21,809 nt of DNA from the IMG/VR virus record IMGVR_UViG_3300001097_000063, positions 1 through 21,809 of that record. One strand, given 5' to 3'. Source of the stretch: a virus. Below the pieces are notes generated by a model. That model was not told the origin of the DNA, made no database searches, and was given only the letters and a program-made list of their open reading frames with translations. Shown here piece after piece: positions 77 through 21,809 of the stretch (position 1 is its first letter; every line of letters begins with the position of its first letter). The translations under genes and the position numbers were made by a program.

Positions 77-150
77 TGGAAGAGTAGATAGGACTTGAAC
101 CCATGTAATCAAGGATATGAGCCTCGATGGAAAAACCAACGTTCCACTCT
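77..150 (-). tRNA. tRNA-Met(CAT) with unusual D-arm
   Basis: Minus-strand tRNA with a seven-pair acceptor (AGAGTGG/CTACTCT), anticodon stem CGAGG/CCTTG, loop CTCATAT (anticodon CAT), T-arm ATGGG-TTCAAGT-CCTAT and an encoded CCA at 77-79. Only 17 nt separate the acceptor from the anticodon stem and the D-stem can form just three clean pairs (TGG/CCA), or competes with the acceptor (GGAA/TTCC). Whether it serves as elongator Met, initiator or lysidine-type Ile cannot be told from sequence. Confidence 0.8.
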
Positions 151-159
151 GCATTATTT

Positions 160-237
160 TGGAGTAAATAGTGGGAATTGAACCCACGACATTCTGATTG
201 GCAACCAGATGCTCTAACCAAACTGAGCTATATTTAC
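160..237 (-). tRNA. tRNA-Gly(GCC), second copy
   Basis: Complete minus-strand copy of the tRNA at the left edge: acceptor GTAAATA/TATTTAC, discriminator U, encoded CCA (160-162), anticodon loop TTGCCAA. It lies in a direct duplication with a 165-bp offset. Confidence 0.93.
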
Positions 238-241
238 ATAT

Positions 242-327
242 TGGAAGAGTAGATAGGACTTGAACCTACAAGCGTTTAACCGCCACGAGTTAGCAACCCG
301 TTTGCTTAACCATTTGCATACTACTCC
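242..327 (-). tRNA. tRNA-Ser(GCT)
   Basis: Minus-strand type II tRNA: acceptor GGAGTAG/CTACTCT, D-stem TGC/GCA, anticodon stem ACGGG/CTCGT, loop TTGCTAA (anticodon GCT), a variable arm with a GCG/CGC stem, T-arm GTAGG-TTCAAGT-CCTAT and encoded CCA (242-244). Its 3' portion is identical to that of the tRNA-Met gene, where the duplicated block ends. Confidence 0.92.
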
Positions 328-332
328 TTATT

Positions 333-407
333 TGGTTACCCTTTTGAGAGTCGAACTCAAGTTTCCAGAGTGAAAGTCTGGCGTCCTAACCATTAGACGA
401 AAGGGCA
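333..407 (-). tRNA. tRNA-Glu(TTC), copy A
   Basis: Minus-strand cloverleaf: acceptor TGCCCTT/AAGGGTA, D-stem GTCT/GGAC, anticodon stem CCAGA/TCTGG, loop CTTTCAC (anticodon TTC), T-arm TTGAG-TTCGACT-CTCAA, discriminator A and encoded CCA (333-335). The body resembles bacterial tRNA-Glu. Confidence 0.92.
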
Positions 408-461
408 ATAATGTAGTTGTGCTATATTTAATTTCCCACACAACAAAGGGGAAAAGGTATA

Positions 462-536
462 TGGTGAGAATAGCAAGAATCGAACTTGCGATACTACAGT
501 GAAAGTGTAGTGTCTTAACCGCTTGACTATATTCCC
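462..536 (-). tRNA. tRNA-Glu(TTC), copy B
   Basis: Second minus-strand tRNA with loop CTTTCAC (TTC) on stem CTACA/TGTAG. The acceptor is GGGAATA/TATTCTC, discriminator A and CCA encoded at 462-464. The D-arm closely resembles Firmicutes tRNA-Glu, whereas copy A has a different body, so these two are not a recent duplication. Confidence 0.92.
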
Positions 537-543
537 AAGTTTA

Positions 544-612
544 TGGTGGAGGTGATGAGAATTAAACTCATGTCCAGTATACTAAAGCACCTGTCGACCT
601 CTTTACACCCCC
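544..612 (-). tRNA. tRNA-like element, anticodon not resolvable
   Basis: The minus strand shows a seven-pair acceptor (GGGGGTG/CACCTCC), a perfect T-arm (ATGAG-TTTAATT-CTCAT), discriminator A and encoded CCA (544-546), so both ends are tRNA-like. Only 34 nt lie between acceptor and T-stem, too few for full D and anticodon arms, and no stable five-pair anticodon stem with a seven-base loop can be drawn. It is the first tRNA-like unit downstream of the large structured RNA. It may be a decayed tRNA or a tRNA-shaped processing signal. Confidence 0.6.
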
Positions 613-619
613 ATTAACA

Positions 620-1203
620 AGTCTTTTAAAACTTAGTAATAATCACAACTGAATCTTCACTCTACAAGTCTATTACCATATCATATTCAGTCACTAGGCA
701 GAGTAGGATGAGCACAGAGGAGCTACCCCCATACTTTCTACCCCAATAAAATCCTAAGCAAGATTGTGTACTTGCAACTTTCACCCGCTATTCATCTTGA
801 TAACTTTATATTTTAAGTTATTCCAATTTTGTTTAGTCATAGGGCTACTTGCACCAAATTCTAATCTTATACCAGAGTTTCCTCTGTTCAAGACTGATTG
901 TATTCGTTGGATTCCTAAGTCCCTACAAGCCGTCCATAGGCTCTAGATTTTAGGTTATCTTCGGTTAGAAGACGGATTATTACAACGACTAGGTTTGTAC
1001 TTTTGAGTACAATAATAGATTTGCAACACATATTATAATTGGAAGTTTCTTCCTTTTCGCTTTTAATTACTTATCTGCAAAAGATTATACATTCAAAATA
1101 TCCTTAGAACGTACCTCTCTATCTTCTATATGTCCCAGAAAAGCTAGTTAAACTTTTTATTCACTGGGTTAGTTGTGGTTATTACTAAATTTTAAAAGAC
1201 CAT
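620..1203 (-). ncRNA. Large structured RNA (ROOL/GOLLD-like candidate) heading the tRNA operon
   Basis: A roughly 584-nt non-coding stretch on the minus strand starts just after a perfect promoter and ends about 8 nt before the first tRNA-like unit. Its first 31 nt (1171-1201) are complementary to its last 31 nt (620-650) apart from a few G.U/A.C positions, giving a long closing helix. Internal hairpins on the same strand include CAGAG-GAAA-CTCTG (873-886, a GNRA loop), GTACT/AGTAC (997-1010), GGAAG/CTTCC (1041-1053) and CTTC/GAAG (959-971). No reading frame of note fits. Giant ornate RNAs of the ROOL and GOLLD families are known from phages, are about 600-800 nt and often sit beside tRNA genes; ROOL is the better size match. 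Family assignment is inference from architecture, not from a sequence match. A TnpB-type guide RNA remnant is a less likely alternative. Confidence 0.65.
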
Positions 1204-1209
1204 GTTTGT

Positions 1210-1238
1210 ATTATATCACACTCTTGTGCTTTTGTCAA
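1210..1238 (-). promoter_or_regulatory. Consensus sigma-70 promoter for the structured RNA and tRNA array
   Basis: On the minus strand TTGACA (1238-1233), a 17-nt spacer and TATAAT (1215-1210), with an extended -10 TG one base upstream. Transcription would begin near 1203, exactly where the closing helix of the RNA begins. No other promoter is seen between here and the tRNAs. Confidence 0.9.
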
Positions 1239-1247
1239 GGTTGATAC

Positions 1248-1278
1248 CTCTCCCACCCTAATTAAAGAGTGGGTAGAG
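1248..1278 (-). terminator. Hairpin after the 130-aa gene, terminator-like
   Basis: Inverted repeat CTCT.CCCAC / GTGGG.AGAG with an AT-rich loop, 18 bp after the stop of the 1296-1688 gene and just before the -35 of the next promoter. No clear U-run follows on the minus strand, so termination is inferred from position and stem strength. Confidence 0.5.
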
Positions 1279-1295
1279 AACCTTACTTACTTAGA

Positions 1296-1688
1296 TTACT
1301 TTACATTAACAACAATACTATCTACTCTGCACTTGTCAATAACAACACAATCAGAGAATGAAGTTAACTTGTTTCTTAGTTCAGATAAGAAGACTTTGTT
1401 CTTATCTTGATGAGCATTATAAGTGTTAATTTCTTTCAAGTCATGCTTTTTACCTGAGTTAGGGTCTAAAGTAGCTAAGATTAATCTCTCATCAACTAAT
1501 ACAACAATGAATGACTTACCTTCTCCACCTTTAGTGATAACGATATCACCTTTTTTGATGAAGTCTGCGTCTGAGAATGGATTAGCTTCATCTTCTAACT
1601 GCTTCATTGCTAATTCACCCTGTTCTGTTAAGTCAATACCTAAGTTCTGTTCGATTCTTGCGTACACATCTTTGATAGTGATTTTCAT
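1296..1688 (-). CDS. Hypothetical protein, 130 aa
   Basis: A small soluble acidic protein with no signal peptide or membrane segment. The N-terminal 35 residues look helical (MKITIKDVYARIEQNLGID start); the middle contains a beta-rich stretch around KGDIVITKGGEGKSFIVVLV and the C-terminus is again hydrophobic-alternating, suggesting a small mixed fold. I do not recognise the family. The start is supported by AAAAGGAG 9 nt upstream. It is preceded by four tandem promoters (1737-2008), an unusually heavy investment for one small gene, and followed by a terminator-like hairpin, so it is probably a strongly expressed single-gene unit. Codons for Trp are absent, so it is uninformative about the code; the stop is TAA. 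Confidence 0.85.
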   Translation of the reverse strand: MKITIKDVYARIEQNLGIDLTEQGELAMKQLEDEANPFSDADFIKKGDIVITKGGEGKSFIVVLVDERLILATLDPNSGKKHDLKEINTYNAHQDKNKVFLSELRNKLTSFSDCVVIDKCRVDSIVVNVK

Positions 1689-1736
1689 AAATGTCCAACT
1701 CCTTTTTTAATATTATTTTTTTTATACTATATAAAT

Positions 1737-1765
1737 ATTATATAATATTTTACTCAATTTGTCAA
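1737..1765 (-). promoter_or_regulatory. Sigma-70 promoter (nearest to the 130-aa gene)
   Basis: Minus strand TTGACA (1765-1760), 17-nt spacer, TATAAT (1742-1737). About 49 bp from the start codon of the 1296-1688 gene. Confidence 0.85.
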
Positions 1766-1813
1766 CAACTTCTTCTCATTTTTTTCTTCATATTATTTTT
1801 TTACTATACTTAT

Positions 1814-1842
1814 ATTATATCATATTATAAGTAATTTGTCAA
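1814..1842 (-). promoter_or_regulatory. Tandem sigma-70 promoter, second
   Basis: Minus strand TTGACA (1842-1837), 17-nt spacer, TATAAT (1819-1814), extended -10 TGATATAAT. Confidence 0.85.
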
Positions 1843-1897
1843 TAACTTTTTTTTTCATATTGTTATTTAATATGTTTTATTTTTTTACTATACTTAT

Positions 1898-1926
1898 ATT
1901 ATATCATATTATAAGTAATTCGTCAA
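1898..1926 (-). promoter_or_regulatory. Tandem sigma-70 promoter, third
   Basis: Minus strand TTGACG (1926-1921), 17-nt spacer, TATAAT (1903-1898), extended -10. Confidence 0.8.
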
Positions 1927-1979
1927 TAACTTTTTTTCGTATTATTATTTAATATGTTTTATTTTTTTACTATACTTGT

Positions 1980-2008
1980 ATTATATCAAAATTATAGTAA
2001 TTTGTCAA
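1980..2008 (-). promoter_or_regulatory. Tandem sigma-70 promoter, fourth
   Basis: Minus strand TTGACA (2008-2003), 17-nt spacer, TATAAT (1985-1980), extended -10 with TG. The -35 lies only 7 bp beyond the stop of the ATT-start gene. Confidence 0.85.
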
Positions 2009-2015
2009 TAACATT

Positions 2016-2270
2016 TTAAAAGAAATCCAAGAATTTTTTTACTCCATTAGCATAAGTAACTCTAATCATTGCATTGGAGTATTCAACTTTAACTATTTCT
2101 CCACTTTCAGAAAAGTTTATAACTTTTCCGCTGGTAAGTTGCAATACCAAATTCTTATCGTTTCCTCCAATGGTTCTTACCACACCATACAGGTTATGTT
2201 TGAATAGGTCCGCTTTATCATCGTGAACAATACTTACATTCTTTCCAAGTAGATGATTTAAATATTTAAT
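2016..2270 (-). CDS. Hypothetical 84-aa protein with ATT start codon
   Basis: An uninterrupted frame of 84 codons with a perfect Shine-Dalgarno sequence AAAGGAG six bases before an ATT codon. An in-frame TAA sits two codons upstream of that ATT and the first in-frame ATG occurs only near residue 68, so ATT is the only start that both fits the ribosome site and gives a sensible protein. It begins IKYLNHLLGKNVSIVHDD and contains alternating hydrophobic stretches (VLQLTSGKVINF, IRVTYANGVKKF) that suggest a small beta barrel, possibly SH3- or OB-like; the family is not recognised. ATT starts are known in bacteria, for example infC, and are allowed in translation table 4. It has its own promoter at 2306-2334. 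Confidence 0.75.
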   Translation of the reverse strand: MKYLNHLLGKNVSIVHDDKADLFKHNLYGVVRTIGGNDKNLVLQLTSGKVINFSESGEIVKVEYSNAMIRVTYANGVKKFLDFF

Positions 2271-2305
2271 AGTTTACTCCTTTCTTTTTTTTTCCTTCTA
2301 TATAT

Positions 2306-2334
2306 ATTATATCAAAATAAACACAATTAGTCAA
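2306..2334 (-). promoter_or_regulatory. Sigma-70 promoter for the ATT-start gene
   Basis: Minus strand TTGACT (2334-2329), 17-nt spacer, TATAAT (2311-2306) with TG one base upstream. Located between the ATT-start gene and the stop of the gene at 2346-2657. Confidence 0.85.
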
Positions 2335-2345
2335 TAACTTTTTTC

Positions 2346-2657
2346 TTAATAAGTATAAATTGCTACTAAGTCTTTAAATAATTCTTCTTCTAGAACTAAT
2401 GTATTTGGAACTCTTAAATGTTCATAGGCTCCACGCATTAAAAGATTCTTAGACTTTACTGAATACATTGGATAATCTAAAATATCTAATAATTGTAACT
2501 CTGCTGAATTCAATACCTCTAATGTATTACTAACTAAAACCATCTTTTCTTCTTCCGTACCAGTCATTCCCTTAAAGTATTTTGAAAGTACACTACGCAT
2601 TTCAAGGGAAAGTTCTTTCTTAGTCTTCTCTTGAATCAGTTCCACTATTTTTTTCAT
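2346..2657 (-). CDS. Hypothetical protein, 103 aa
   Basis: The start is placed at the ATG at 2657 (MKKIVELIQEKTKKEL) because AAAGGAGG lies 5-6 bases upstream; a longer frame opening at 2687 has no ribosome site. The protein is predicted largely helical: a charged helix over residues 1-25, then GMTGTEEEKMVLVSNTLEVL and a C-terminal LVLEEELFKDLVAIYTY. No recognised domain, signal peptide or membrane segment. It overlaps the end of the upstream gene (2620-2913) by 38 nt in another frame, so its translation is probably coupled to that gene. The last gene of a three-gene operon with 2620-2913 and 2917-3150, read from the promoter at 3231-3259. Confidence 0.8.
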   Translation of the reverse strand: MKKIVELIQEKTKKELSLEMRSVLSKYFKGMTGTEEEKMVLVSNTLEVLNSAELQLLDILDYPMYSVKSKNLLMRGAYEHLRVPNTLVLEEELFKDLVAIYTY

Positions 2658-2913
2658 CACTACCTCCTTTTTCTGAATTAATAACATAAGTTCTTAATTT
2701 AGACAAGATAGAACCAACTTGTAATATTTCTTGAGTTCCTTTAACGTCTACTCTATCAAATAAAATTATAATGTTATTCGCTTCATACGGTCTAAGTCCC
2801 TCATCTAAATTAGTTATTAACTCTTTAGACGCAGACATTTCTCTTTCTGCCGTTTTAAATATTTCATTCAACTTCTTTTTTAGTATTTCTTTTTCATTCT
2901 GACTTAATTTCAT
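2620..2913 (-). CDS. Hypothetical protein, 97 aa
   Basis: A helical, highly charged N-terminus (KLSQNEKEILKKKLNEIF) is followed by a short beta-rich core (NNIIILFDRVDVKGTQEIL) and a hydrophilic acidic tail ending GTDSRED. Not recognised. GGAGGATAG upstream is both the end of the preceding gene and its ribosome site, leaving only 3 nt between the two frames; its own end overlaps the next gene by 38 nt. This packing indicates one polycistronic message. The tail is encoded by the overlapping region, so part of its composition is constrained by the downstream gene. Confidence 0.8.
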   Translation of the reverse strand: MKLSQNEKEILKKKLNEIFKTAEREMSASKELITNLDEGLRPYEANNIIILFDRVDVKGTQEILQVGSILSKLRTYVINSEKGGSDEKNSGTDSRED

Positions 2914-2916
2914 AAT

Positions 2917-3150
2917 CTATCCTCCTATCAATTCATTAATTTCTTTATTCCTATTGTCTAAATCCTTTAAGGCTTCATGCAATACGTCTATATTAGAAAA
3001 GAAAAATACATTCTTATTGGGGAAATCCTTATTCTTTTCCATATCATGGAGTTTAAATCCCTTCATCATAAGAAAGCCTGCTTTGAATTGAGAAAAGACA
3101 ATATAAGTTTTTGCTCTTTCAATAGTTAATTCTTTTTCAGTTTTTTTCAT
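2917..3150 (-). CDS. DUF5659-like small protein, 77 aa
   Basis: The central stretch (residues about 15-60: TYIVFSQFKAGFLMMKGFKL, then a spacer and KNVFFFSNIDVLHEAL) has the look of the small phage/Firmicutes family annotated DUF5659: an aromatic strand, a hydrophobic glycine-containing segment, a lysine/proline/asparagine linker and an F-x-F strand. The assignment is by pattern memory only. The function of that family is not known. Start supported by TAGGAGG five bases upstream. First gene of the operon with 2620-2913 and 2346-2657; the promoter at 3231-3259 lies about 80 bp upstream. Confidence 0.72.
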   Translation of the reverse strand: MKKTEKELTIERAKTYIVFSQFKAGFLMMKGFKLHDMEKNKDFPNKNVFFFSNIDVLHEALKDLDNRNKEINELIGG

Positions 3151-3230
3151 AAATCCTCCTACTATTTTTATGATGTTCTCGTCAACACTACTAGTTACTT
3201 AAAATAATTCTTTTTTTTTACTATACTTAT

Positions 3231-3259
3231 ATTATATAACAATATAAACAAGATGTCAA
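3231..3259 (-). promoter_or_regulatory. Sigma-70 promoter for the three-gene operon
   Basis: Minus strand TTGACA (3259-3254), 17-nt spacer, TATAAT (3236-3231). The intergenic stretch 3151-3364 holds this promoter, a second one at 3328-3356 and an imperfect inverted repeat around TACTTAAAATAACTAG (about 3189-3290); no gene is evident in it. Confidence 0.85.
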
Positions 3260-3327
3260 TAAGTTTTTCTAGTTATTTTAAGTATAGTTACTCCTTTCTT
3301 TTTTTATTTTTTTCTTTCTATACTTAT

Positions 3328-3356
3328 ATTATATAACAATATTAATAAATTATCAA
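3328..3356 (-). promoter_or_regulatory. Orphan sigma-70 promoter with leader and ribosome site
   Basis: Minus strand TTGATA (3356-3351), 17-nt spacer, TATAAT (3333-3328). The predicted leader runs into AAAGGAGTAACT at about 3296-3285, nearly the same as the ribosome site of the ATT-start gene (AAAGGAGTAAACT), but no convincing protein follows before the next promoter. It may simply add to transcription of the operon, or mark a deleted gene. Confidence 0.75.
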
Positions 3357-3364
3357 GAACAATT

Positions 3365-3805
3365 TTATATTTCTTTATACAGAAAACACCTATTTGCTAC
3401 AAACATATCTGAGTCAAAACTAAAGAAAGGGATGTCTTTTAGCATATACCCCCTCTCACGCGTGTATCCAACAATGACAAATTCTCTACCACAGTAAACA
3501 TTCATACTAACTGAAAATGTATTTGAGGTTCTAACATAAAATTCTCTTTCTTGTTCTGAGTAGTTTATTTTGAAATCCCTTGCAAACTGCTCTTTAGTTT
3601 TTATTCTAACTACATCTCCTACTTGATAAATAAGACTTGCTCTTTTTAAGTTCTCACGAGGAATTTTCATTCCTGTTTTTACCGCTCCTTTGTGGATTGG
3701 AATATAATACTCTCCGTGTTCTATCCCTTTTAGTTTCAATACTTTAAAGTTACCCCTTACTTGATTAGTTATGTCTTTATATAAGAGACTTTTACTCAAG
3801 GACAT
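3365..3805 (-). CDS. Hypothetical protein, 146 aa, possible SH3-like C-terminus
   Basis: Start ATG has TAAGGAGG seven bases upstream. The first third is basic (SKSLLYKDITNQVRGNFKVL). From residue about 64 the pattern GDVVRIKTKEQFARDF, then VNVYCGREFVIVGY-like strands and YMLKDIPFFSFDSDMF, resembles the small beta-barrel (SH3-like) domains common in uncharacterised phage proteins, which often end with a strand of the form Y-x-L-x-D ... F-S-x-x-M-F. This is a structural impression, not an identified family. It is monocistronic: promoter 3846-3874 upstream and the orphan promoter immediately downstream. Confidence 0.8.
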   Translation of the reverse strand: MSLSKSLLYKDITNQVRGNFKVLKLKGIEHGEYYIPIHKGAVKTGMKIPRENLKRASLIYQVGDVVRIKTKEQFARDFKINYSEQEREFYVRTSNTFSVSMNVYCGREFVIVGYTRERGYMLKDIPFFSFDSDMFVANRCFLYKEI

Positions 3806-3845
3806 ACTATTCCTCCTTATTTTTTTTCTTTTATCTTATATATAT

Positions 3846-3874
3846 ATTATATCAAAATATGAAAGAAATATCAA
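3846..3874 (-). promoter_or_regulatory. Sigma-70 promoter for the 146-aa gene
   Basis: Minus strand TTGATA (3874-3869), 17-nt spacer, TATAAT (3851-3846), extended -10. It diverges from the plus-strand promoter at 3951-3979, with about 75 bp between the two -35 elements: the strand switch of the window. Confidence 0.85.
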
Positions 3875-3950
3875 GAACAATTTCGTAAAGTAGTATTTAC
3901 AATTCCCTTCCGACCTTATAGATTCTCGATGAAAATACTAAAAATTTTTC

Positions 3951-3979
3951 TTGATATTTTCCCCATAATTTGATATAAT
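3951..3979 (+). promoter_or_regulatory. Sigma-70 promoter for the transglycosylase gene
   Basis: TTGATA (3951-3956), 17-nt spacer, TATAAT (3974-3979), extended -10 TGATATAAT. First rightward promoter of the window. Confidence 0.88.
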
Positions 3980-4012
3980 ATTATTAGAGATAAAAAAAAG
4001 GAGGAAAAATAT

Positions 4013-4627
4013 ATGCTGATACAAGACGTTGATATACAGAATATAAGTATTAATTATAGTAATAGTAGTTCTATTAAACATTATAATATAACTAATACAT
4101 TTAGTCAAGAGAAAAATAAAGATTTTTTCTATTTTTCTACAACTGTTTTAAAACCCAAGGTAGAATTGTTTCTGAGAGATTTAGCAATTGAATTAGACTT
4201 GGAGCTTTCTTTAGTTTTATCTCTAATAGAGTTAGAAACAGGAGGGAAATTCAACAATGAGGTGGTAAGTACTAATCCAACAAGTGTAGATATAGGACTT
4301 TTCCAACTAAACAGTAGGTGGGGAGTCCCAAACGCAGAAGAAATACTAGGTTGTGAAGTTGACCCATACGATATTTATGATAACATTTCAGGTGGTTTAG
4401 CAATACTTTACAATAATAGAGAATATTATAGAAATCAAGGGTATACTGGGGACAGTTTGATGAATATGACTCTATTGTCTTACAATAGGGGGATAGGTGG
4501 TGCAAATGTATGGATGAAAACACACAACGACTATCATATCTACGTTCACATTATAAGAGGCAACCAACATAAATGGCAAAAGCTAGTAGATGAAATGAAT
4601 AAGCCAGTTCATCTTTTAGAATTGTAA
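4013..4627 (+). CDS. Lytic transglycosylase-like protein (SLT/lysozyme fold), 204 aa
   Basis: Residues about 50-175 have the layout of soluble lytic transglycosylase domains, which cleave the MurNAc-GlcNAc bond of peptidoglycan: a hydrophobic helix leading to IELETGGKFN with the likely catalytic Glu75, the family motif GLFQLN (95-100, cf. G-L-x-Q), and SYNRG near residue 157 (cf. A-Y-N-x-G). The N-terminal 45 residues are polar and Asn/Ser-rich without a signal peptide, as expected of a phage enzyme delivered by the virion or released by a holin. Ribosome site AAAGGAGG precedes the ATG. It stands alone between two promoters and next to replication genes rather than tail genes. Trp codons are all TGG; stop TAA. 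Catalytic Glu assignment is by alignment from memory. Confidence 0.85.
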   Translation: MLIQDVDIQNISINYSNSSSIKHYNITNTFSQEKNKDFFYFSTTVLKPKVELFLRDLAIELDLELSLVLSLIELETGGKFNNEVVSTNPTSVDIGLFQLNSRWGVPNAEEILGCEVDPYDIYDNISGGLAILYNNREYYRNQGYTGDSLMNMTLLSYNRGIGGANVWMKTHNDYHIYVHIIRGNQHKWQKLVDEMNKPVHLLEL

Positions 4628-4636
4628 AAATAGTTC

Positions 4637-4665
4637 TTGTAAAACTGTTTATTTTCTGATATAAT
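4637..4665 (+). promoter_or_regulatory. Sigma-70 promoter for the early plus-strand operon
   Basis: TTGTAA (4637-4642), 17-nt spacer, TATAAT (4660-4665), extended -10 TGATATAAT. It would drive the 27-aa peptide and the three genes up to 7989. Confidence 0.82.
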
Positions 4666-4703
4666 ATTAATATAAGATAATAAAAAAAAAGAAAGAGGTG
4701 TAA

Positions 4704-4787
4704 ATGAGTGTTATATTAATGGGAATTTTATACTTTGTTGGTAGTCTATTTTCAGAATTATTGAATACTGGAGTTTATAAAAAATAA
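4704..4787 (+). CDS. Small membrane peptide, 27 aa
   Basis: ATG preceded by AAAGAGGTG at good distance and ended by TAA. The product is MSVILMGILYFVGSLF followed by a short polar end with two lysines at the C-terminus: one hydrophobic segment of about 15-16 residues. It sits directly behind a promoter and 15 nt before the next start, whose ribosome site GGAGG follows its stop. The function is unknown; small phage membrane peptides include holins, antiholins and leader peptides, but nothing here decides between them. Confidence 0.65.
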   Translation: MSVILMGILYFVGSLFSELLNTGVYKK

Positions 4788-4802
4788 TAGGAGGAGAAGA
4801 AT

Positions 4803-5963
4803 ATGAAAACAATAAACGATAAAGAAAAAAGTTTCAATGATGTTTTAGAAGACTCTTTTAGCAAACTAGATAAAGCAATACTTAACGGTTCAGAATTAAA
4901 TGAGGAAGTAGTTCGTGAATATTGTGATTTAGATTATTTAACTGAGTCTTTTATTGACTTTTATGAGTATTTCTCAGAAAGCTCAAAAACATTTAGTGTG
5001 GTTCAAAAAATGTTAGGAGATTATTTTATTTCAAAGTACTACTTATATAAGCTTTTAGGAAGTGTTCGAATTACTCAAGAAGTTGATATTGATGTAGAAG
5101 AACATAAAGTATTTAATAACTTAATGAGAGCATTTGAAGTAGCGAAGTCTGATAAGAAAAGCGAACTACAAAGTGAATCAAATACAACAAAGAAAGAAGC
5201 GTTAATAAATGATATTATTAATTTGAATTTTGCTTGTAGTGAACAAATTAAATTAGATTCATCTGATATGTCTAAGAATGTTGCTAGTAAATATGGTGGT
5301 ATAAAAGTTTCAAAGCTATATGCTAATATGTTTGGTGGAGATAATATAGTAACAACAACTTTTTCAAACTCTATTCAAAACAATAGAATGAAAGAAGACC
5401 TTTATATATCTATTTCACCTTTAGATATTTTAACATTGAGTGAAAATAGCTATTCTTGGCAAAGTTGTTTGAGATTACAAGGAGAGTACGGTGCAGGGAG
5501 TCTATCTTATATCTTAGATGGGTCAACAGTAGTAGCATTCATTGGTAAGTATAACGATAACTTCCCTTGCTTAGATAAAAAATGGAGACAGTTAATGTAC
5601 ATTCAGAAAAGTAATTGTTCTGATGATTCATTAACAATAGCTCAATCTAGACAATATCCCAATGATATATCTGACGCAGAAAGTATTAGTAGAAGACTTT
5701 TAATGTCTAAGATAAATGATTTCGCAGGTGAGAATCTATCTTACAAAAAAGTAATTCCAACAGAGAATATTGAAGAAAATGAGAATGCTCCTCATTATTA
5801 TGATTTAAGAAGTAATCATCATGGAGTTCAAACAACACATGAGAGTTTTAAAAACATTCCACATTTTCTAGTTGGGTCAGAAGCTTATTGTATTGATTGT
5901 GGTTATTCACTTGGAAGAGAAGATAGTCACTACGGGTATACCTGTAATGATTGTAGTTATTAA
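4803..5963 (+). CDS. Zinc-ribbon-tailed phage protein, paralogue A, 386 aa
   Basis: Not a named family I recognise. Residues 1-190 are helical and charged. Residues about 195-310 form a core shared with the gene at 6922-7989: an L-T-x-S-x-N segment, then SWQSCLRL, a GEYGAGSLSYILDGSTVVAF stretch and KWRQLMYI. The invariant W-x-S-C-L and G-x-x-x-Y-x-L-D-x-S-T pattern suggests a conserved site. The C-terminus (about 362-386) is a zinc ribbon with two C-x-x-C pairs (CIDC, CNDC). A GGAGG ribosome site is 10 bases upstream of ATG. Part of the operon 4704-7989. Both Trp codons are TGG. Cytosolic, no signal. Confidence 0.8.
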   Translation: MKTINDKEKSFNDVLEDSFSKLDKAILNGSELNEEVVREYCDLDYLTESFIDFYEYFSESSKTFSVVQKMLGDYFISKYYLYKLLGSVRITQEVDIDVEEHKVFNNLMRAFEVAKSDKKSELQSESNTTKKEALINDIINLNFACSEQIKLDSSDMSKNVASKYGGIKVSKLYANMFGGDNIVTTTFSNSIQNNRMKEDLYISISPLDILTLSENSYSWQSCLRLQGEYGAGSLSYILDGSTVVAFIGKYNDNFPCLDKKWRQLMYIQKSNCSDDSLTIAQSRQYPNDISDAESISRRLLMSKINDFAGENLSYKKVIPTENIEENENAPHYYDLRSNHHGVQTTHESFKNIPHFLVGSEAYCIDCGYSLGREDSHYGYTCNDCSY

Positions 5964-5981
5964 CTAGGAGGAGAGAATATA

Positions 5982-6908
5982 ATGATAAAACAAAAAAACA
6001 TAGCCATAGGTGAGACTCTTAGAGATGTGGAAACCTTTAAACTAATTTTGGGTCTTACTCAAAAAGAATTAAAGAACACACTGGTTAAAGATATTTTACC
6101 ACTGTTCTACAGCAAAGACATGATTAGAAGCAAAGACGGATATATTAAGGTTGTGGGTGAAGAAGATGTGATGTTACTTGCACATATGGATACAGTATTC
6201 AAAACTCCACCAACAACTTTTATATTCGACAAGGAACAAGAGTTAATAACTTCGCCAGATGGATTGGGTGGAGACGATAGATGTGGTATATTCGGTATTC
6301 TAGCTCTACTTTTAGCGGGACACCGCCCACATATACTGTTTACTGAAGATGAAGAAATTGGTGGAGTTGGAGCTCGCAAGGCTTCAAAAGAAGAAATTGT
6401 TCCAGTTGATATAAAATACTTAATTCAACTGGATAGACGAGGAAGTGAAGACGCAGTGTTTTATTGTTGCGATAGCCCAGATTTTCATTCCTTAGTAGAA
6501 GGGTACGGATTTAAAAAGACTAGTGGGAGCTTTACAGATATTGATACACTAATGCCTATCTGGGACATATGTGGCGTAAACTTGTCAATAGGATACTACA
6601 ATGAACATAGAGAATATGAATACGTAGACATTAAAGAAATGATTGCTACTATCGAAAAAGTTTCCAAGATGATAAATACATTGCCTAAAGAGAAACCAGT
6701 TTTTATTGAAAAAACATATGTTTACTACAAGAGAAAAAATAAAACTATTGATTTTTATCAAGGAATGTATCAACAAGAAAGTGAAGAAGGTGGATTTGAT
6801 ATAGTCTGTTACGCGTGTGGGAAATTTCATAAAGACACTTTTTCGAAGAGTGTATATGGTATGGATTTATGTGACGGATGTCATGGACTATTAGAGGTTC
6901 CGTCTTAA
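5982..6908 (+). CDS. M20/M28-like metallopeptidase fused to a zinc ribbon, 308 aa
   Basis: The first 240 residues follow the di-zinc aminopeptidase plan of the M20/M28 clan (cf. PepT): AHMDTVF (His/Asp ligands), DGLGGDDRCG (bridging Asp), FTEDEEIGG-like LFTEDEEIGGVGA (catalytic and ligand Glu), LIQLDRRG (ligand Asp) and NEHREYEY (ligand His). All five metal/catalytic positions appear present, so hydrolysis of a peptide or related amide is plausible; the substrate is unknown. The dimerisation domain of typical M20 enzymes is missing, making it compact. Residues about 276-303 add a zinc ribbon (CYAC...CDGC), unusual for a peptidase and shared in style with both flanking genes. GGAGG before ATG; 13 nt separate it from the next gene. 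Cytosolic. Confidence 0.82.
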   Translation: MIKQKNIAIGETLRDVETFKLILGLTQKELKNTLVKDILPLFYSKDMIRSKDGYIKVVGEEDVMLLAHMDTVFKTPPTTFIFDKEQELITSPDGLGGDDRCGIFGILALLLAGHRPHILFTEDEEIGGVGARKASKEEIVPVDIKYLIQLDRRGSEDAVFYCCDSPDFHSLVEGYGFKKTSGSFTDIDTLMPIWDICGVNLSIGYYNEHREYEYVDIKEMIATIEKVSKMINTLPKEKPVFIEKTYVYYKRKNKTIDFYQGMYQQESEEGGFDIVCYACGKFHKDTFSKSVYGMDLCDGCHGLLEVPS

Positions 6909-6921
6909 ACGGAGGTGATAC

Positions 6922-7989
6922 ATGTTAAAAGACATAAAAGACTTTTATAAGAATGGTTACGGGGTCGAGATAATTGACCCCAATCCTCTTATTTCCTTAC
7001 ACAATGAAAATAAAAAGGAAATAATCAATATGTTTGGGGGTCAAAAGAAAATAGAAATAGATATTGAAACTACAGTAAGTGACAGAGAGTATAGAAAGAT
7101 TCTTAATGTTTTTTCTAAGAAGTATGAGGGCATAAATGTACTATTGGAGCTAATAACCAAAGATGAATTTTTGAATAATAGAATTACTAGCAAAATAGAG
7201 TATAGTGAGGAAAAATTTAATAAAGGAATGAAAGTATCCAAAATACTCAAAAAAGCTGTAAATTATAATCCGTACGATTTACAAACTGACTATTCAATGA
7301 TTATACAGAAGTCGAAGATAGTTGGACAACTTGTTTTTAGTGTAGATATTTTAGATATGCTCACAATAAGTTTAAATAATAAAAATTGGAGTAGTTGTCT
7401 AAATCTCACCGATGGTATATACAGGGGTGGGACTTATGCTTATCTATTAGATAGTAGTACTTTTGTGGCTTATTTAAAGACAAATACAACGGTCATCAAT
7501 GGGGTTGAGATAGACGACAAACAATGGAGGCAATTAGTACATATTAATATAGAAAGGTCTCAAGCATTGTTTTCTAAGAACTATCCTTATGAATCAGATA
7601 TTTTAAGCACTGCTGTTAGAGAAAATCTTGAGGAGCTGTTATCTAAATATAAAAATTTACAGAATAAATGGATGTTAGTGAAAAAGATGGGAATCATAAG
7701 ACAATCAATAAATGATGTCGGTATGACTTTTGATTACAATGATATATTATTATCCTCCTCTGAAGAAAAAGATATGAGTGCTATATATCATAAGAAGGGA
7801 AGTATGGAATTATCTGTAGATATTGGGATTATGAAAATCCCTTGTCCAATATGTGGCGAAAAACATATTGATAGTGAAGATATGATTATGTGTAGCGACT
7901 GTGACACTATGATTAAGTGCAAGTCTTGTGGGGAATATAATTGAAAGAGTTATATGACTGAAGACGATATATGTTACGAATGTTTTTAG
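6922..7989 (+). CDS. Zinc-ribbon-tailed phage protein, paralogue B, 355 aa (one TGA=Trp)
   Basis: Paralogue of 4803-5963 over the core: LTISLNNKNWSSCLNL, a G-x-Y-x-G-G-x-Y-A-Y-L-L-D-S-S-T segment and QWRQLVHI. The C-terminus has two zinc ribbons in a row: CPIC...CSDC and CKSC...CYEC. The second ribbon is complete only if the TGA at 7942-7944 is read as Trp; the frame then continues through the C-x-x-C pair and stops at TAG (7987-7989). A standard-code reading would leave a half ribbon. GGAGGTG precedes ATG. Last gene before the promoter at 8000-8028. Function unknown; possible nucleic-acid or protein contact through the ribbons is inference. Confidence 0.82.
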
Positions 7990-7999
7990 AAAATAATAT

Positions 8000-8028
8000 T
8001 TGACAAAATTAAATTTATATGATATAAT
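8000..8028 (+). promoter_or_regulatory. Sigma-70 promoter for the recombination/replication operon
   Basis: TTGACA (8000-8005), 17-nt spacer, TATAAT (8023-8028), extended -10. One of the best matches in the window, placed 11 bp after the stop of the previous gene. Confidence 0.88.
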
Positions 8029-8076
8029 TATAGATGTAGAAAATGAAAGTATAAAAAAAAATAAAGGAGTGATGTA

Positions 8077-8964
8077 ATGTCAGATTTAAGACAGGGTTAC
8101 AGTTCAGTAGTTATTAAGGGAGAATTAATGGAGAATACTCTCGAGCAAAATATTAGTAAGAGAGATGGTTTCCCCTATATCGCAGGAGACTTGTCAATCA
8201 AAACAAGTGATGATAATATTGTCAAAGTAAACATGTATGCAGGAAAGTTTAAAAAAGCTGGTGGGGAAAGTAAATTATTCAAGAGTTTCAAATCTATCAT
8301 GGAAACTTATAAGTCTTCAGCAGACGCAGGAGAAGGGCAAAAAGGAGATAATGTAGAATTTACTAGTGCAGAGTTATCTCCAAATAGTTTTATGACAGAT
8401 GATGGAAGTATACTTGAGAACTACAATGTAAGAGGTGTATTCCCAAATAGAATAAAAGGAGAATTCGAACCTACTGGAACATTCGGAGTTGAAGTATTAA
8501 TTGACTCTATATTTGATGAAATGGATGAGGAAACACAAATGGAAACAGGAGCTAAGATTATAAAAGGTTATTTTATTGGGTACGCAGGAAGCGTTGTGGA
8601 GTTAGAATTTGCAGTAGAAAGTCCACAAAAAGTGAGTTACGTTGAGTCTCAATATAAAAAAGGAGACACTGTTAAATTATTCGGTCAAATGAAAAATAAA
8701 GAAGTTACTATCACCAAGACAGAAGAGATGGCTTTTGGAGAAGACATTGTTCAAGAAAGAACAGTATCGAAGAAAAGATTGCTTGTCACTAGAGGAACAA
8801 CTCCTTACTCAGATGGTAAAGAATATGCCATTGAAGAAGTTAAAGAAGCACTTAAGATGAGAAATATCAATTTAAAGTCAAAAAGCAAAACATCTAAGCC
8901 TGCTAAACCTAAAGCTAAAGAGACTAGTGGTTCTGGCGGTAGTTTTGACCCATCAAACTTTTAG
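8077..8964 (+). CDS. Single-stranded DNA-binding-like protein, 295 aa
   Basis: The body is beta-rich with motifs typical of large phage SSB-type proteins (SSVVIKGELMENTLEQ, NVEFTSAELSPNSF), followed by a basic, low-complexity linker near residues 268-285 (KSKSKTSKPAKPKAKE) and a glycine/serine tail ending SFDPSNF. A flexible tail with a terminal acidic/aromatic tip is how SSB proteins recruit partners. The immediate downstream gene is a Sak4-like ATPase, and SSB plus Sak4 pairs are a known recombination cassette in phages. The family is not certain from sequence alone; a general phage OB-fold DNA-binding protein is the alternative. AAAGGAGTGATGTA precedes ATG. No Trp codons. Confidence 0.65.
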   Translation: MSDLRQGYSSVVIKGELMENTLEQNISKRDGFPYIAGDLSIKTSDDNIVKVNMYAGKFKKAGGESKLFKSFKSIMETYKSSADAGEGQKGDNVEFTSAELSPNSFMTDDGSILENYNVRGVFPNRIKGEFEPTGTFGVEVLIDSIFDEMDEETQMETGAKIIKGYFIGYAGSVVELEFAVESPQKVSYVESQYKKGDTVKLFGQMKNKEVTITKTEEMAFGEDIVQERTVSKKRLLVTRGTTPYSDGKEYAIEEVKEALKMRNINLKSKSKTSKPAKPKAKETSGSGGSFDPSNF

Positions 8965-9011
8965 TCAGAATGCAGTCGTAAGTTATTAGAAAAAATAAAA
9001 GGAGTGATTAG

Positions 9012-10043
9012 ATGTTAGATTTAATGAATGTGGAAGAACATATCCCTAGTACCAATCTAAAGGGGTATTCAGTAATGATTTATGGTGAGAAAAAAGTTGG
9101 CAAAACATACAATGCAAGTCAATTTCCAAAACCTCTACTATTAGCTTTTGAAAAAGGGTACAGTGCTTTATTCGGAGTAAAGGCTGTATCAATTAATAAA
9201 TGAACTGAAGCTAAAGAAGTATTAAGACAGTTGTCGAAAGATGAAGTCAAGGACCAGTATGAGACTGTCATAGTCGACACTGCTGACATAGCTGTAGAGT
9301 ACGTAAAAGATTATATCTGTAACAGAGAACAAGTTGGTAAAATAGGAGATATTGGATACGGACAAGGTTATGGAATGTATGAAGAAGAATTTGATAGATT
9401 CATTAGAGAAATTCCAAAAATGGGATATGGTCTAGTAATCATCTCTCATGATAAAGATAAAGTCTTCACTGATGAAAGTGGTCATGAGTACAATAAAATC
9501 ACAACAACATTAGACAAGAGAGCTCACAAGGTTGTAACAAGAGCTGTTGATATTTACGCTTATGCTAGAATGGTGACAAATTCAGAGGGGGTTGAAAGCA
9601 GAAAATTATTCTTAAGAGGAACAGAGAGATTTGAAGCTGGAAGTAGATTTAAAAATATCAAACCTTTCGTAGAGTTTTCTCATGATGGATTAGCCGAGGC
9701 AGTTAAAGATGCAGTCTTGTCTGAGGCGGAAGAAAAAGGCATTAAAGTTTCTGAAGAAGTAAAGAACTTAAGAGAAGAAACTGCAGAAGACCACGGAACT
9801 TTCCAGGAAGAAAAAAATAGATTTGATGATTTAACTGGAGCGTTTATGGAAGAGGGAATTGCATTACTAGGTAATTTAGAAGACCCTGATGAAGTTACTC
9901 AGGGCAAAAGAGAGTTGTCAGACAAAATAATAACCCTAGTAGAAGAAGAACTAGGAAAAGGAAGAAAGGTTTCTGAGATGAGTAAATCTCAAGTAGACAT
10001 TTTATTCCTAATAAATAATAGAATAGAGAACGAATTGAAGTAG
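9012..10043 (+). CDS. Sak4-like RecA-fold ATPase (AAA_24 type), 343 aa (one TGA=Trp)
   Basis: Walker A GEKKVGKT at residues 25-32 and Walker B ETVIVDT at 84-90, with an SHD motif (VIISHDKDK) further on, match the phage Sak4/AAA_24 group: RecA-like ATPases that promote single-strand annealing and recombination with an SSB partner. Residue 64 is the in-frame TGA (9201-9203); the frame continues without break, and Trp is common in this position of the family (SINKWTEAKEVL). Residues beyond about 220 form a charged helical extension. Stop TAG. A strong terminator follows at 10052-10080. Standard-code annotation would split this gene in two. Confidence 0.87.
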
Positions 10044-10051
10044 TAAAATTG

Positions 10052-10080
10052 AATAGGAGTATAATACTCCTATTTTTTTT
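10052..10080 (+). terminator. Rho-independent terminator
   Basis: ATAGGAGTAT/ATACTCCTAT stem with a tiny loop followed by eight T. It would end the SSB-Sak4 transcript. No clear promoter lies between it and the next gene at 10101, so leaky read-through probably feeds the downstream operon; a weak TATAAT at 10060-10065 has only a poorly placed -35. Confidence 0.88.
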
Positions 10081-10100
10081 ATTAATGAAGAGGTGGTTAA

Positions 10101-10595
10101 ATGGCAAATAAAGTAAAATGTCCAGTTTGTGAGGAACGCTTCTATAAAGAAGAAGTGGATTTTGTGAAGAAGGGAAGAAGATATTATCACAAAGAATGTG
10201 TAGAAGAACAAGCAGAAGTTGATGAAGCGAATTCTGTGGTAAACCATGAAAATATGGTGGAAATAATAAAAAAAATATTTGATATAAAATATCCAAGTCC
10301 TAGAATACTTAAACAGATAAAAGACTATCAAAAAAAAGGTTACACTTACTTTGGCATATGAAAAACCCTAGAGTACTGGTTTATACTAGAAGGGAATTCT
10401 ACTAAGAAAGCTCATGGCGGAATAGGAATAGTACCCTACGTTTATGAGGACGCTTCTATTTACTATAGGAAGGTTAAAGAGAGCAAGGAGTCTGGTAACC
10501 AAAAAGTGAATAAGGAAGAACATAAGGTAGTTATAGCGAGACCAGATAAAAAAAGTGTTTTCGAGAAAAGAAAGATAGATATGAAAGAATTATAG
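10101..10595 (+). CDS. Small zinc-finger phage protein, 164 aa (one TGA=Trp)
   Basis: The N-terminus has a zinc-finger-like CPVC...HKEC arrangement (residues 8-34). The C-terminal half contains a stretch seen in many Firmicutes phage proteins of unknown function: GYTYFGIWKTLEYWF ... HGGIGIVPYVYEDA ... YY. The Trp in GIWKTL is the TGA at 10359-10361, after which the frame runs to TAG at 10593-10595. The stop overlaps the GGAGGTG ribosome site of the helicase. Position between recombination ATPase and helicase suggests a replication accessory role such as a helicase loader-like factor, but this is only context. Confidence 0.78.
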
Positions 10596-10605
10596 GAGGT
10601 GAACT

Positions 10606-13600
10606 TTGAGTAGTTTTAAAGATATAAATATAGAAGAATTGTACGACAACAAAGCAGTATTAATGTTATTTGGTGCTCTTTTGAACAACCCAACAACATT
10701 ATTAAAACATGATAGATTTAAATTAGAGGTGTCAGATTTTGTAGCAAGACATCATAGAATTGTTTTCTCTGCGATAAATAATTTAGTTAATTCTGGAGTG
10801 GATAGGTTGGACTCTATTGCGATAGACAGTTATTTAAATAAGTATCCAGAGCAGTATGAAATATTTCGGAGTAATAGAGGACTAGAAGCTCTTGAATTTG
10901 CAAAGAATAGTGCTGATGGAGACAATTTTGTGTATTACTATAATCGTGTAAAAAAGTTCTCTTTATTGAGGGCTTATTTGAAGTCTGGGGTAGACATAAG
11001 ATTTATATATGACCCAGACGAACTTAATTCAGACAAGAAAGAAAAAATGCAAAATGGTTTAGACAAGATGTCTATAAATGAAATAATTAATCTAGTAGAC
11101 ATGAAGATAGTAGAGGTTAGACAAAGCTTTGAAATGAGTGCAGATAGTTATGGACAAAGAGCTGGTCAAAATATTGTTGGTTTAATAGATGACTTATTAG
11201 AAAAACCTGCAATTGGACTACCTTTAAATGGCAGTTATATAAACGGTATCGTAAGAGGTGCAAGACTTAAAAAACTCTATATGAGAAGTGCTCCTACTGG
11301 TGTGGGGAAGGCTATCCCAAACTATACTAAGATACCAACTCCAGAAGGATTTAAAAGGGTTGATGAGGTAAAAATTGGTTCTTACATTTTTGGAAGAAAT
11401 GGAAAGCCAACAAAAGTAGTGGGCGTCCATCCGCAAGAGAGTGAAAAAGAAATAAACAAAGTTACTTTCGCTGATGGTAGAGTTGCCGAAACATGTGACG
11501 AACACTTATGGGAATATTTTACAGATAGAAGATGTGCCCATAAGACAAAAACTACTAAGCAGATACTCGAAGAAGCTAAATCTCTTGGTGGATTTAAAGG
11601 AACAAGTGGGTATACTTTTAAAGTTCCGATAAATGGTGCAGTTGAGTATAATGAAAAAGAATATGGACTTAAACCCTACACTTTTGGAGCACTATTGGGA
11701 GATGGAAGTTTCAGGTATGTAAGTGGAAGAAGAGATTTAACGTTCTCTGCTGCCGATGAAGAAATAATATCTACAATGTCCAAATTAGAGGGGTGGCACT
11801 ATGAGAAAGAAAAAAGTGAAAACTATTCTTGGTTCTTTAGGAAAGAAAAAAACACTAACAACAGAATTTCTGTTGAAGAATCAATAGGTTACAAAGACTT
11901 ATGGAATGCCAAAAGTGAAGATAAATTTATTCCTGACGACTATTTATTGGGGTCTATAGACCAAAGAATGTGCCTACTACAGGGGCTTCTTGATACAGAT
12001 GGCTCAATAGATAAAAAAGGAAGAGTTGCTTATCACACTATTAGTGTAAAACTTAAAGATGACGTTGTGAGTTTAGCTAGAAGTCTTGGTTATATACCAA
12101 CAATCATAGAGGACATAAGAGATAAATACTCTACAGGAGTTTGTTATAAAATTAATATACAAATGCCACACGAAGATAAGCTAAAAGTATTTAGGTTTTC
12201 TAGAAAATTAAATATTGCGAATAAGTATGTTTTAACGTTAAAAAGAAAAGAGCATAAAGATTATAATCCAATAGTAAATATAGAAAAAATGGGTTTCTCT
12301 ACAGAGATGACTTGTTTTACAGTTGACAACGATGAACACTTGTTCCTAATGAATGATTATATTGTAACTCACAATACTAGATTCAGTGCGGGAGATGCTA
12401 TAAACCTAGCAGTAGATAAAGTTTGGGACTCAAAGAAAAATGATTGAGTATCTAATGGTATAAGTATGCCATCACTATTTATTACTACAGAGCTAGAAAT
12501 ACAAGAGATACAAACATTATTCCTTGCCTTTGTCTCAAATGTAAATGAGGCACATATATTAGATGGAGAATATGACGAAGGAGAAAAGGAAAGGGTAATA
12601 GAAGCTGCACACATCATAAAGGGAGCTCCAATTTGGATAGAACACTTGTCTAATCATAATATTCAACAAGTAGACAATATGGTAACGAGACATAAATTAA
12701 AGCATGATGTACATTATGTATTTTTCGATTATGTTCACACTACTTTAAAGATACTTGCCGAAATTGCTTCTGCCAGTAGAGGAGTCAGACTAAGAGAAGA
12801 TAATGTTCTGTTGATGTTTGTAAGTAGATTAAAGAAGATAGCCAATGAGTTAGGAGTCTTTATATATACTGCTACGCAAGTTAATGGTGACTGGGATAAA
12901 GTAGACCAAGCTACACAAAATTTATTACGTGGTGTTTTTACGCCACTAAATTTCTTATCCGCATATCAAGTGGGGTTTTAATTTAACAAATTAAAGCTAA
13001 CGAGGAAGCCTAAGGTGAGAGCTATGGTAATCTCGTGGCATATTACTTAATAATGTATTAAGTAAGTCGCTGTATCGACTATTTCCAGTTAGATGGAAAG
13101 TAGGGTTACTATTGATAAGTAACGTAGTTTTAAGTAATTAAACTACTGAGAACCGAAACAGAAATTCTCTCCTTGGTAGGAGAGTAAGAGATAGTCAGTG
13201 CTTGTGGAAACACAAGAGTAACACGGCAAAATCAATGGCAGATTTGAATAACTTTTTATTCGCATCTTAGAAAGGTGTGTTGAAATTGAAAAAAAAATAG
13301 AAGTAAGTAGCATAGAAAATATTATAAATCTATGCGAATAAAAAGTAAACTAGAGTCGTCTATGTCAGCAATGGCGTAGTTAGGTACTGGTGAACTTACA
13401 AATGTAAGGTGTGCTATTAATTTAGTGCTAACGGGGAAACTCTAAGGGAGAAATCCTATGACAATCCCGTGCCAAGTTTAGTTAAAGGTGTAACGACTAT
13501 CCCAGCCAATAAAGGGAGTAGTTTTAAGGTGTAATTCCTTATTACGAAGAGCCAGTCCCTCCCATCTAGGGAGGTGCAGATATAGTCTAGTCCGTATTAA

Positions 13601-13935: not shown

Positions 13936-13950
13936 GTGGGAGGTGCTTAA

Positions 13951-15060: not shown

Positions 15061-15071
15061 GAGCTGATAAT

Positions 15072-15281
15072 ATGAAGGGAATTTATAGACCAAAAATCAC
15101 TAAAGGGCTATCTAAATCTATGGTAGAAATGGATGGTAAAAGCTTCCATTTTGTGTGAGTAGGTGTTGCGGAAGACTACCTATTTACTGGGCAAAATGTT
15201 TACGAAGCACAAGGGTTAGAATTCAACATTCCAGAAGAAAGTATTGACTGAATATATCCATTGGAATTTTTCCAATGTTAA
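15072..15281 (+). CDS. Hypothetical protein, 69 aa (two TGA=Trp)
   Basis: AGGAGCTGATAAT precedes ATG, 11 nt after the primase stop. The frame contains TGA at 15156-15158 and 15249-15251 and ends in TAA, so it is invisible under the standard code. The product (start MKGIYRPKITKGLSKSMVEM) includes FHFVWVGVAEDYLFTG and ESIDWIYPLEFF, an aromatic, beta-rich small protein that may be an SH3-like fold; not recognised. Both its Trp residues are encoded by TGA. The end of the gene contains a perfect inverted repeat CATTGG/CCAATG that could form an RNA hairpin but is not followed by a U-run. Confidence 0.75.
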
Positions 15282-15306
15282 ATTAAAAAAAAAGAAGGGT
15301 GATTAA

Positions 15307-17049: not shown

Positions 17050-17061
17050 GAAAAAAAGATA

Positions 17062-17090
17062 TTGTAAAAATTATAAAATAATGGTATAAT
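17062..17090 (+). promoter_or_regulatory. Sigma-70 promoter for the DNA polymerase gene
   Basis: TTGTAA (17062-17067), 17-nt spacer, TATAAT (17085-17090), extended -10 (TGGTATAAT). Confidence 0.83.
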
Positions 17091-17129
17091 GTATATATAA
17101 GATAAGAAAAAAAAGAAAAGGAGGTATAA

Positions 17130-21743: not shown

Positions 21744-21760
21744 CTTTTGTAAGAAAAACC

Positions 21761-21789
21761 TTGACTTTCTTTTACTTAAATGGTATAAT
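21761..21789 (+). promoter_or_regulatory. Sigma-70 promoter for the next gene (outside window)
   Basis: TTGACT (21761-21766), 17-nt spacer, TATAAT (21784-21789), extended -10 (TGGTATAAT). Starts 18 bp after the polymerase stop and points out of the right edge. Confidence 0.82.
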
Positions 21790-21809
21790 ATAATTAGGAT
21801 AGAAAATAC

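Follow-up and report, generated by a model that had tools for sequence, protein, structure and literature searches.

A ROOL RNA and a predicted tag-less tmRNA at the head of a phage tRNA cluster

The DNA analysed here, called the window throughout, is a stretch of 21,809 nucleotides from a virus (IMG/VR record IMGVR_UViG_3300001097_000063, positions 1 to 21,809). Near its start, the minus strand carries a predicted promoter, a large structured RNA, a short tmRNA-like element and a row of tRNA genes. The features are given below; the names of loops, junction, contacts and linker were mapped by us onto the Rfam structure from the text of the paper on a solved ROOL cage, as far as that text is available (PMC12286853).

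1210 to 1238, minus strand: sigma-70 type promoter with a perfect match (TTGACA, 17 nt, TATAAT; 12/12), predicted by promoter scan
620 to 1203, minus strand: predicted ROOL transcript body, from pairing and fold, in which the closing helix extends past the Rfam ends
632 to 1192, minus strand: ROOL RNA (Rfam RF03087, model positions 1-574, complete; 293.2 bits, E 9.3e-67)
933 to 936, minus strand: loop 8 half (TGGA) of the intermolecular kissing contact B4, by our mapping
908 to 911, minus strand: junction half (TCCA) of kissing contact B4, by our mapping
787 to 841, minus strand: 55-nt stretch between the conserved words AGTAGCCC and GGGTGAAAGTT, containing the variable linker by our mapping
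721 to 725, minus strand: loop 18 (TAGCT on the RNA strand, of which AGCT is self-complementary), candidate for the symmetric contact B6
544 to 612, minus strand: predicted tmRNA tRNA-like domain without mRNA-like domain, 69 nt (RF00023, 36.2 bits; covariance model R1, described below, 64.1 bits)
462 to 536, minus strand: tRNA-Glu (TTC), ARAGORN
333 to 407, minus strand: tRNA-Glu (TTC), second copy, ARAGORN
242 to 327, minus strand: tRNA-Ser (GCT), ARAGORN
160 to 237, minus strand: tRNA-Gly (GCC), ARAGORN
77 to 155, minus strand: tRNA-Met (CAT), ARAGORN

Another IMG/VR record, of 72,423 bases (IMGVR_UViG_3300023301_000006, here G005), represents the same virus; it is 99.90% identical to the window over 86-9361, 99.98% over 9361-21809, and fully identical over 901 bases around ROOL. 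Positions 1-101 of the window duplicate the tRNA-Gly region and diverge from G005, in which tRNA-Met is followed by tRNA-Ser(TGA); this is probably an assembly-end repeat.

A covariance search, proposed as a check in the preliminary description of this DNA, is decisive for ROOL. In an Rfam cmscan of the whole window, RF03087 scores 293.2 bits (gathering score 99.1), and a search of its own on the source record, an IMG/VR virus record of 24,182 bases, places ROOL at the same position. The preliminary description had likened the element to both ROOL and GOLLD; the likeness to ROOL stands over the whole model, while that to GOLLD (RF02032) falls, with no gathering-score match in the window and none at E <= 0.001 in the 72-kb G005. 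Similar size and tRNA linkage could still suggest that the element is GOLLD or some unrelated structured RNA, but ROOL and tRNA are the only Rfam families that reach gathering score in the window, and together with the GOLLD searches this makes such an assignment vanishingly improbable. We regard the identity of the 584-nt element as ROOL as near certain; it adds a new member to an RNA family already known.

The structured RNA of about 584 nt with a 31-bp closing helix that had been described earlier is likewise borne out. In the best 31-nt register found by register search, the closing helix P1 has 30 of its 31 positions paired; 300 resamples of this region from a first-order Markov model gave a mean of 19.6 (sd 1.5, maximum 25). 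The energy of the end duplex is -38.6 kcal/mol, against -15.1 ± 4.5 kcal/mol in the resamples, with a minimum of -31.6. For the minus-strand 584-mer, the predicted folding energy is -160.1 kcal/mol; 100 dinucleotide shuffles gave -122.8 ± 5.9 and none as low (z -6.3), and the closing helix appears in the predicted fold as 23 and 7 pairs flanking a single mismatch. The only listed frame of at least 60 codons fully inside 620-1203 is a 60-aa TTG frame on the opposite strand. By blastn, the ROOL region has no match at E <= 1e-5 among 50,697 phage records, and the four contigs L008-L011, which came from one pattern scan, have no ROOL match.

According to the available text of PMC12286853, the ROOL octamer is held by several contacts, including kissing between loop 8 and junction 6/8, and the variable linker sits inside the cage. 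Judged from sequence, the predicted B4 kissing contact of the octamer is retained in the window ROOL and covaries across relatives: of the 36 distinct ROOL rows (from 39 copies), 33 can form a loop 8/junction pairing of 4 bp or longer, and the pairings average 4.92 in length, whereas 1000 swaps of partners between relatives gave 4.19 ± 0.13 with a maximum of 4.58. The partners include TGGC/GCCA, TGGT/ACCA, TTGAC/GTCAA and GGATAT/ATATCC among others; three rows (L271, L285 and L290) have a pairing of 3 only. Two simple patterns sort loop 18 of 40 ROOL copies into 22 with TNGCT, 2 with another loop (looser pattern) and 16 with neither, and by this rough test TAGCT itself is present in 11 copies, including that of the window. 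The spacing from AGTAGCCC to GGGTGAAAGTT, 55 nt in the window, is 48-88 nt across 40 ROOL copies.

Two further points of the preliminary description, the place of the element at the head of a phage tRNA operon and the UGA recoding of the phage, are supported as well. For the first, the perfect promoter at 1238-1210 is followed on the same strand by five tRNA genes, and a sixth tRNA match in the cmscan is truncated by the window end. The final base of the promoter, 1210, is 7 nt ahead of 1203, and we infer a transcription start near 1203. The scan as a whole gave 7 promoter-like sites, against 6.0 ± 2.6 in shuffles, that is, no excess; thus the weight of the promoter lies in its perfect match and its position. 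The sole terminator-like site on the minus strand of 1-1800 is inside tRNA-Gly, and there is none between ROOL and tRNA-Gly. Across 46 ROOL-pattern loci, 34 of them with ARAGORN genes, 286 of 287 such genes share the ROOL strand; the 46 include L301 and L303, which proved to be non-ROOL and have no tRNAs, the window together with L012, both from one virus, and some near copies among the rest. Past the Rfam end of ROOL, the next tRNA follows after 4-19 nt in 8 of 16 loci, which were picked since a tRNA seemed near ROOL, and after 53-239 nt in the other 8; L290 and L291 each have a tRNA whose end is 12 nt upstream of ROOL. Taken as a whole, the identity and anatomy of the element as ROOL, and its position as first product of a phage tRNA transcript, are in our view highly probable.

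For the recoding, the Pfam domains AAA_24 (codon 64), DHH (codon 89) and DNA_pol3_alpha (codon 520) each span an in-frame TGA at which the table-11 frame breaks; the regions concerned are 9012-10043, 15307-17049 and 17130-18944 of the window. In our reading, UGA would be decoded as tryptophan. The anticodon TCA is found in none of the 16 ARAGORN tRNAs of the whole G005; thus the host may read UGA itself. Elsewhere in the window, a DnaB-type helicase gene (10606-12981) has LAGLIDADG and Hom_end matches in mid-frame and is intein-like.

The element at 612-544, which starts 19 nt downstream of the Rfam end of ROOL and before the first tRNA, had been missed in the preliminary description, and we think that it is the more novel part of the locus. 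A permissive cmscan of 530-640 (111 bases) matches it to the tmRNA family RF00023 at 36.2 bits (E 1.1e-13; gathering score 47); both ends of the model match, and 13 nt stand in for the 318 positions between them. The 7-bp acceptor, G3-U70, UCGAC, GGAC, the T arm and an encoded CCA are intact, all acceptor and T-stem pairs are formed, and P2 has only 3 pairs in plain register. With neither a tag reading frame nor pseudoknots, the element counts as tag-less. The same sequence scores 44.8 bits in G005; since the DNA is identical, the difference from 36.2 bits probably comes from search settings. ARAGORN makes no call at 612-544, and a search with the standard model found no full standard tmRNA elsewhere in G005. 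On these features it is near certain that 612-544 is a tmRNA reduced to its tRNA-like domain, which we call a mini-tmRNA.

Such an element could also be the functionless, decaying remnant of a tmRNA acquired from a host. Its predicted fold is weak, the tRNA-like form being 6.7 kcal/mol above the minimum-energy structure with a T-arm pairing probability of 0.01, its Rfam score is below the gathering cut-off, and ssrA fragments are known from prophage genomes, according to the accessible part of PMC9004378; all of this would fit decay, and the intact acceptor and T-stem pairs, UCGAC, GGAC and CCA would not. The viral relatives of the element bear on the same question. We searched with a pattern for the tmRNA tRNA-like domain in which 8-38 nt replace the mRNA-like part and U70 is fixed. 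At least 120 viral loci match this pattern; 109 of those listed have at least 6/7 acceptor pairs, and 11 were dropped. They hold at least 89 further distinct mini-tmRNAs (loci L013-L132), or 90 with that of the window, with lengths of 64-89 nt, and 44 representatives remain at <80% identity among those listed. The P2 pairs 2-5 are formed in 166 of 176 cells of these 44 listed representatives, against 82 ± 6 in row shuffles (maximum 105 in 2000); the pattern imposed the first P2 pair and the filter partly imposed acceptor pairing, but neither constrained the T stem or the remaining P2 pairs. An alignment of 20 of the 44 listed representatives, selected for a common 5' length, has 98.8% of its cells paired, against 73.7% in shuffles and 49-60% in slid registers, and 80 double changes, against 20.5 in shuffles (0 of 500 as high). 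The recurrence of the reduced form in representatives this divergent, with P2 pairing far over its null, argues against decay, and we consider a functionless remnant unlikely.

The covariance model R1 was built from the 20 aligned mini-tmRNAs. It scores mini-tmRNAs at 48-73 bits, tRNAs at no more than 37 and the 3' ends of ordinary tmRNAs at up to 38; the 64.1 bits of the window mini-tmRNA are to be read with an identical sequence among the 20 model sequences. The predicted folds of the 90 listed mini-tmRNAs have a T-arm probability of at least 0.5 in 48 and below 0.5 in 42, and the gap to the tRNA-like fold has a median of 4.4 kcal/mol, with 39 within 3. Of the 90, ARAGORN picks up 4, and every one of the 90 listed sequences has G as its third base.

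Records with mini-tmRNAs were then compared for other genes. SmpB was found in 0 of 48 such records, and in 10 of 14 control genomes. Of 46 records selected for long contigs, out of 110 such loci, 43 have the deleted form at a score over the Rfam tmRNA cut-off; in just one of the 46 (G011), the standard model also matched a full standard tmRNA above that threshold. No other tRNA is found within 1 kb at up to 71 of the 90 listed loci (one per sequence; some loci end sooner), and at the remaining 19 listed loci all 46 tRNA neighbours are on the mini-tmRNA strand. Going by the tRNA count, most of the listed mini-tmRNAs look like single genes outside tRNA arrays. Going by the sequences at hand, tmRNAs with only the tRNA-like domain (TLD-only) look widespread in uncultured phages.

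Among deposited phages, blastn with five mini-tmRNA queries gave 8, 4, 37, 4 and 0 records, and no TLD-only tmRNA was confirmed in the 10 regions inspected (R1 22.5-38.1 bits), which resemble the 3' ends of tmRNAs, ordinary or permuted, or else a tRNA or perhaps an attachment site. A pattern scan of genome contigs left 11 of 119 listed loci after acceptor pairing, and most of the listed matches look like 3' ends of ordinary tmRNAs; one of the 11 was scored with R1 and the other ten were judged by eye. The one scored (L213; JADEXW010000032.1, Pseudanabaenaceae cyanobacterium LEGE 13415, 2383-2466) is a mini-tmRNA of 62.3 bits on a bacterial genome contig.

In the records searched, the two RNAs of the window seldom occur together. 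Two ROOL patterns gave 48 stretches, for which 46 records were searched (L006 and L300 were omitted as copies or the same record), and ROOL is over the cut-off in 44 of the 46. Four of these 44, from 3 lineages (G005, G042, G057 and G069), hold a mini-tmRNA, which is a raw count and no measure of enrichment. The mini-tmRNA is on the ROOL strand in all four. Its distance downstream of ROOL is 19 nt (G005), about 1.4 kb (G042) or 1.2 kb (G057); the G069 contig has ROOL at one end and the mini-tmRNA at the other. G057 and G069 have one diverged mini-tmRNA copy in common. Its T loop (L305 138-218 and L306 196-276) reads GGCGGTA, compared with the usual TTNRANT. Full tmRNA is present in 4 other ROOL records of the 44. 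Since only 4 of 44 have a mini-tmRNA and 4 of 44 have a full tmRNA instead, ROOL does not depend on a mini-tmRNA. Conversely, ROOL is over the cut-off in 2 of the 46 mini-tmRNA records and in none of the other 44; GOLLD matches two mini-tmRNA records, at 150.4 bits and, under the cut-off of 150, at 70.3 bits. R1 matches in G055 (36.9 bits) and G085 (31.8 bits) look like tRNAs by sequence and were not counted. Two near-relative contigs (93% and 96% protein identity; polymerase/Sak4 relatives) are fragments, and they hold neither ROOL nor mini-tmRNA.

Two records deserve mention in their own right. G011 (IMGVR_UViG_3300025362_000004) has a full tmRNA, a TLD-only tmRNA, a GOLLD match just over the cut-off, a weak ROOL match of 31.7 bits and 39 ARAGORN tRNAs, all within 60-80 kb. 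G065 (IMGVR_UViG_3300032167_000002, 402,311 bases) has two ROOL copies, at 6246-6837 and 209967-210580, and a 97-nt RF00023 match of 38.9 bits, without UCGAC, at 244721-244817.

We propose three possibilities for how the two RNAs are related. First, a strong promoter of its own would drive ROOL, which would head the phage tRNA transcript as its first product and have its 5' end at the transcription start. Its 3' end would be set by an RNase P cut before the next tRNA-like element, here the mini-tmRNA; such a release is suggested by the mini-tmRNA occupying the place of the tRNA that elsewhere comes 4-19 nt after ROOL. The freed ROOL would then assemble into an octameric cage, as solved for other ROOL RNAs. 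The tRNAs of the transcript would feed the codon needs of the phage; the tag-less mini-tmRNA would tie up SmpB, thus blocking host trans-translation; and the ROOL cage would be an abundant, stable partner in the same takeover program. One transcript would thereby form a translation-takeover kit made of ROOL, a tmRNA antagonist and tRNAs, which we put forward as our best, though tentative, reading. In the portions of the literature available to us, the abundance of ROOL can equal that of 16S rRNA, and deletion of ROOL in one strain of L. salivarius gave no clear phenotype.

Second, ROOL alone may be functional, with the mini-tmRNA as a processing tag for the RNase P cut that frees the ROOL 3' end. 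The mini-tmRNA stands where 8 of the 16 chosen ROOL loci have a tRNA, and the accessible part of PMC3985003 describes processing of the tmRNA 5' end by RNase P; but 44 of 46 mini-tmRNA records are without ROOL over the cut-off, up to 71 of the 90 listed loci have no other tRNA within 1 kb, and G3, present in all 90 listed, preserves the alanine pair G3-U70, for which a simple processing signal would have no use. This explanation is possible but doubtful. Third, the uncut transcript may be the active form, in which the ROOL octamer cage would display eight mini-tmRNAs on its outside as an eight-fold SmpB trap; we think this very unlikely. More broadly put, the role of ROOL would be that of a scaffold, on which the tRNA-like element encoded at the ROOL 3' end is displayed or stored. 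The available text of Ling et al. (PMC12515178) describes a suppressor tRNA precursor fused to the ROOL 3' end with the octamer retained.

Few natural RNAs are known that form a protein-free cage, and ROOL is one of them. If the takeover kit is the right reading, a ROOL copy ahead of a likely tmRNA antagonist would tie this RNA to a testable process, namely the way in which ribosome rescue is controlled while a phage infects its host. Tag-less tmRNAs also seem to be common in phages, with at least 90 distinct sequences here; the 2025 tmRNA database, in the part of PMC11915505 available, has 79 phage tmRNAs and, across all groups, 9 unique 'standard, no CDS' and 72 'permuted, no CDS' sequences. 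If they are indeed common, anti-trans-translation would be a wide phage strategy. Among the open PubMed Central papers listed by our searches, none was seen to describe a wide spread of TLD-only tmRNAs among phages or their occurrence next to ROOL; other preprints and most subscription papers lie outside this scope.

Compared with known ROOL RNAs, namely the solved octamer env-120 (available text of PMC12286853) and those of E. faecalis and Firmicutes bacterium CAG:227 (available text of PMC12515178), the window ROOL agrees in its match to the whole covariance model, size, closing helix, loop 8/junction contact, linker, tRNA island and phage origin. It differs in that its phage seemingly reads UGA as an amino acid, in that a TLD-only tmRNA, not a tRNA, comes next, and in that it is known from sequence alone, whereas env-120 is known as an octamer. 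GOLLD (RF02032) is, like ROOL, a cage-forming phage RNA near tRNAs, but its sequence and structure are other than those of the window ROOL. For the mini-tmRNA, phage DS6A is the named precedent: the accessible parts of PMC4131195 and PMC11915505 describe a TLD-only tmRNA in this phage, and a DS6A-like TLD-only molecule that strongly inhibited tmRNA, perhaps via SmpB titration. By description, both the DS6A RNA and that of the window consist of the tRNA-like domain and have lost the mRNA-like domain; unlike that of DS6A, the window TLD-only tmRNA adjoins ROOL. Mitochondrial tmRNA (RF02544) and plastid forms, the latter of about 65 bp in the available text of PMC11915505, have no tag reading frame either; unlike the window element, they are organelle genes, and the mitochondrial gene is usually permuted.
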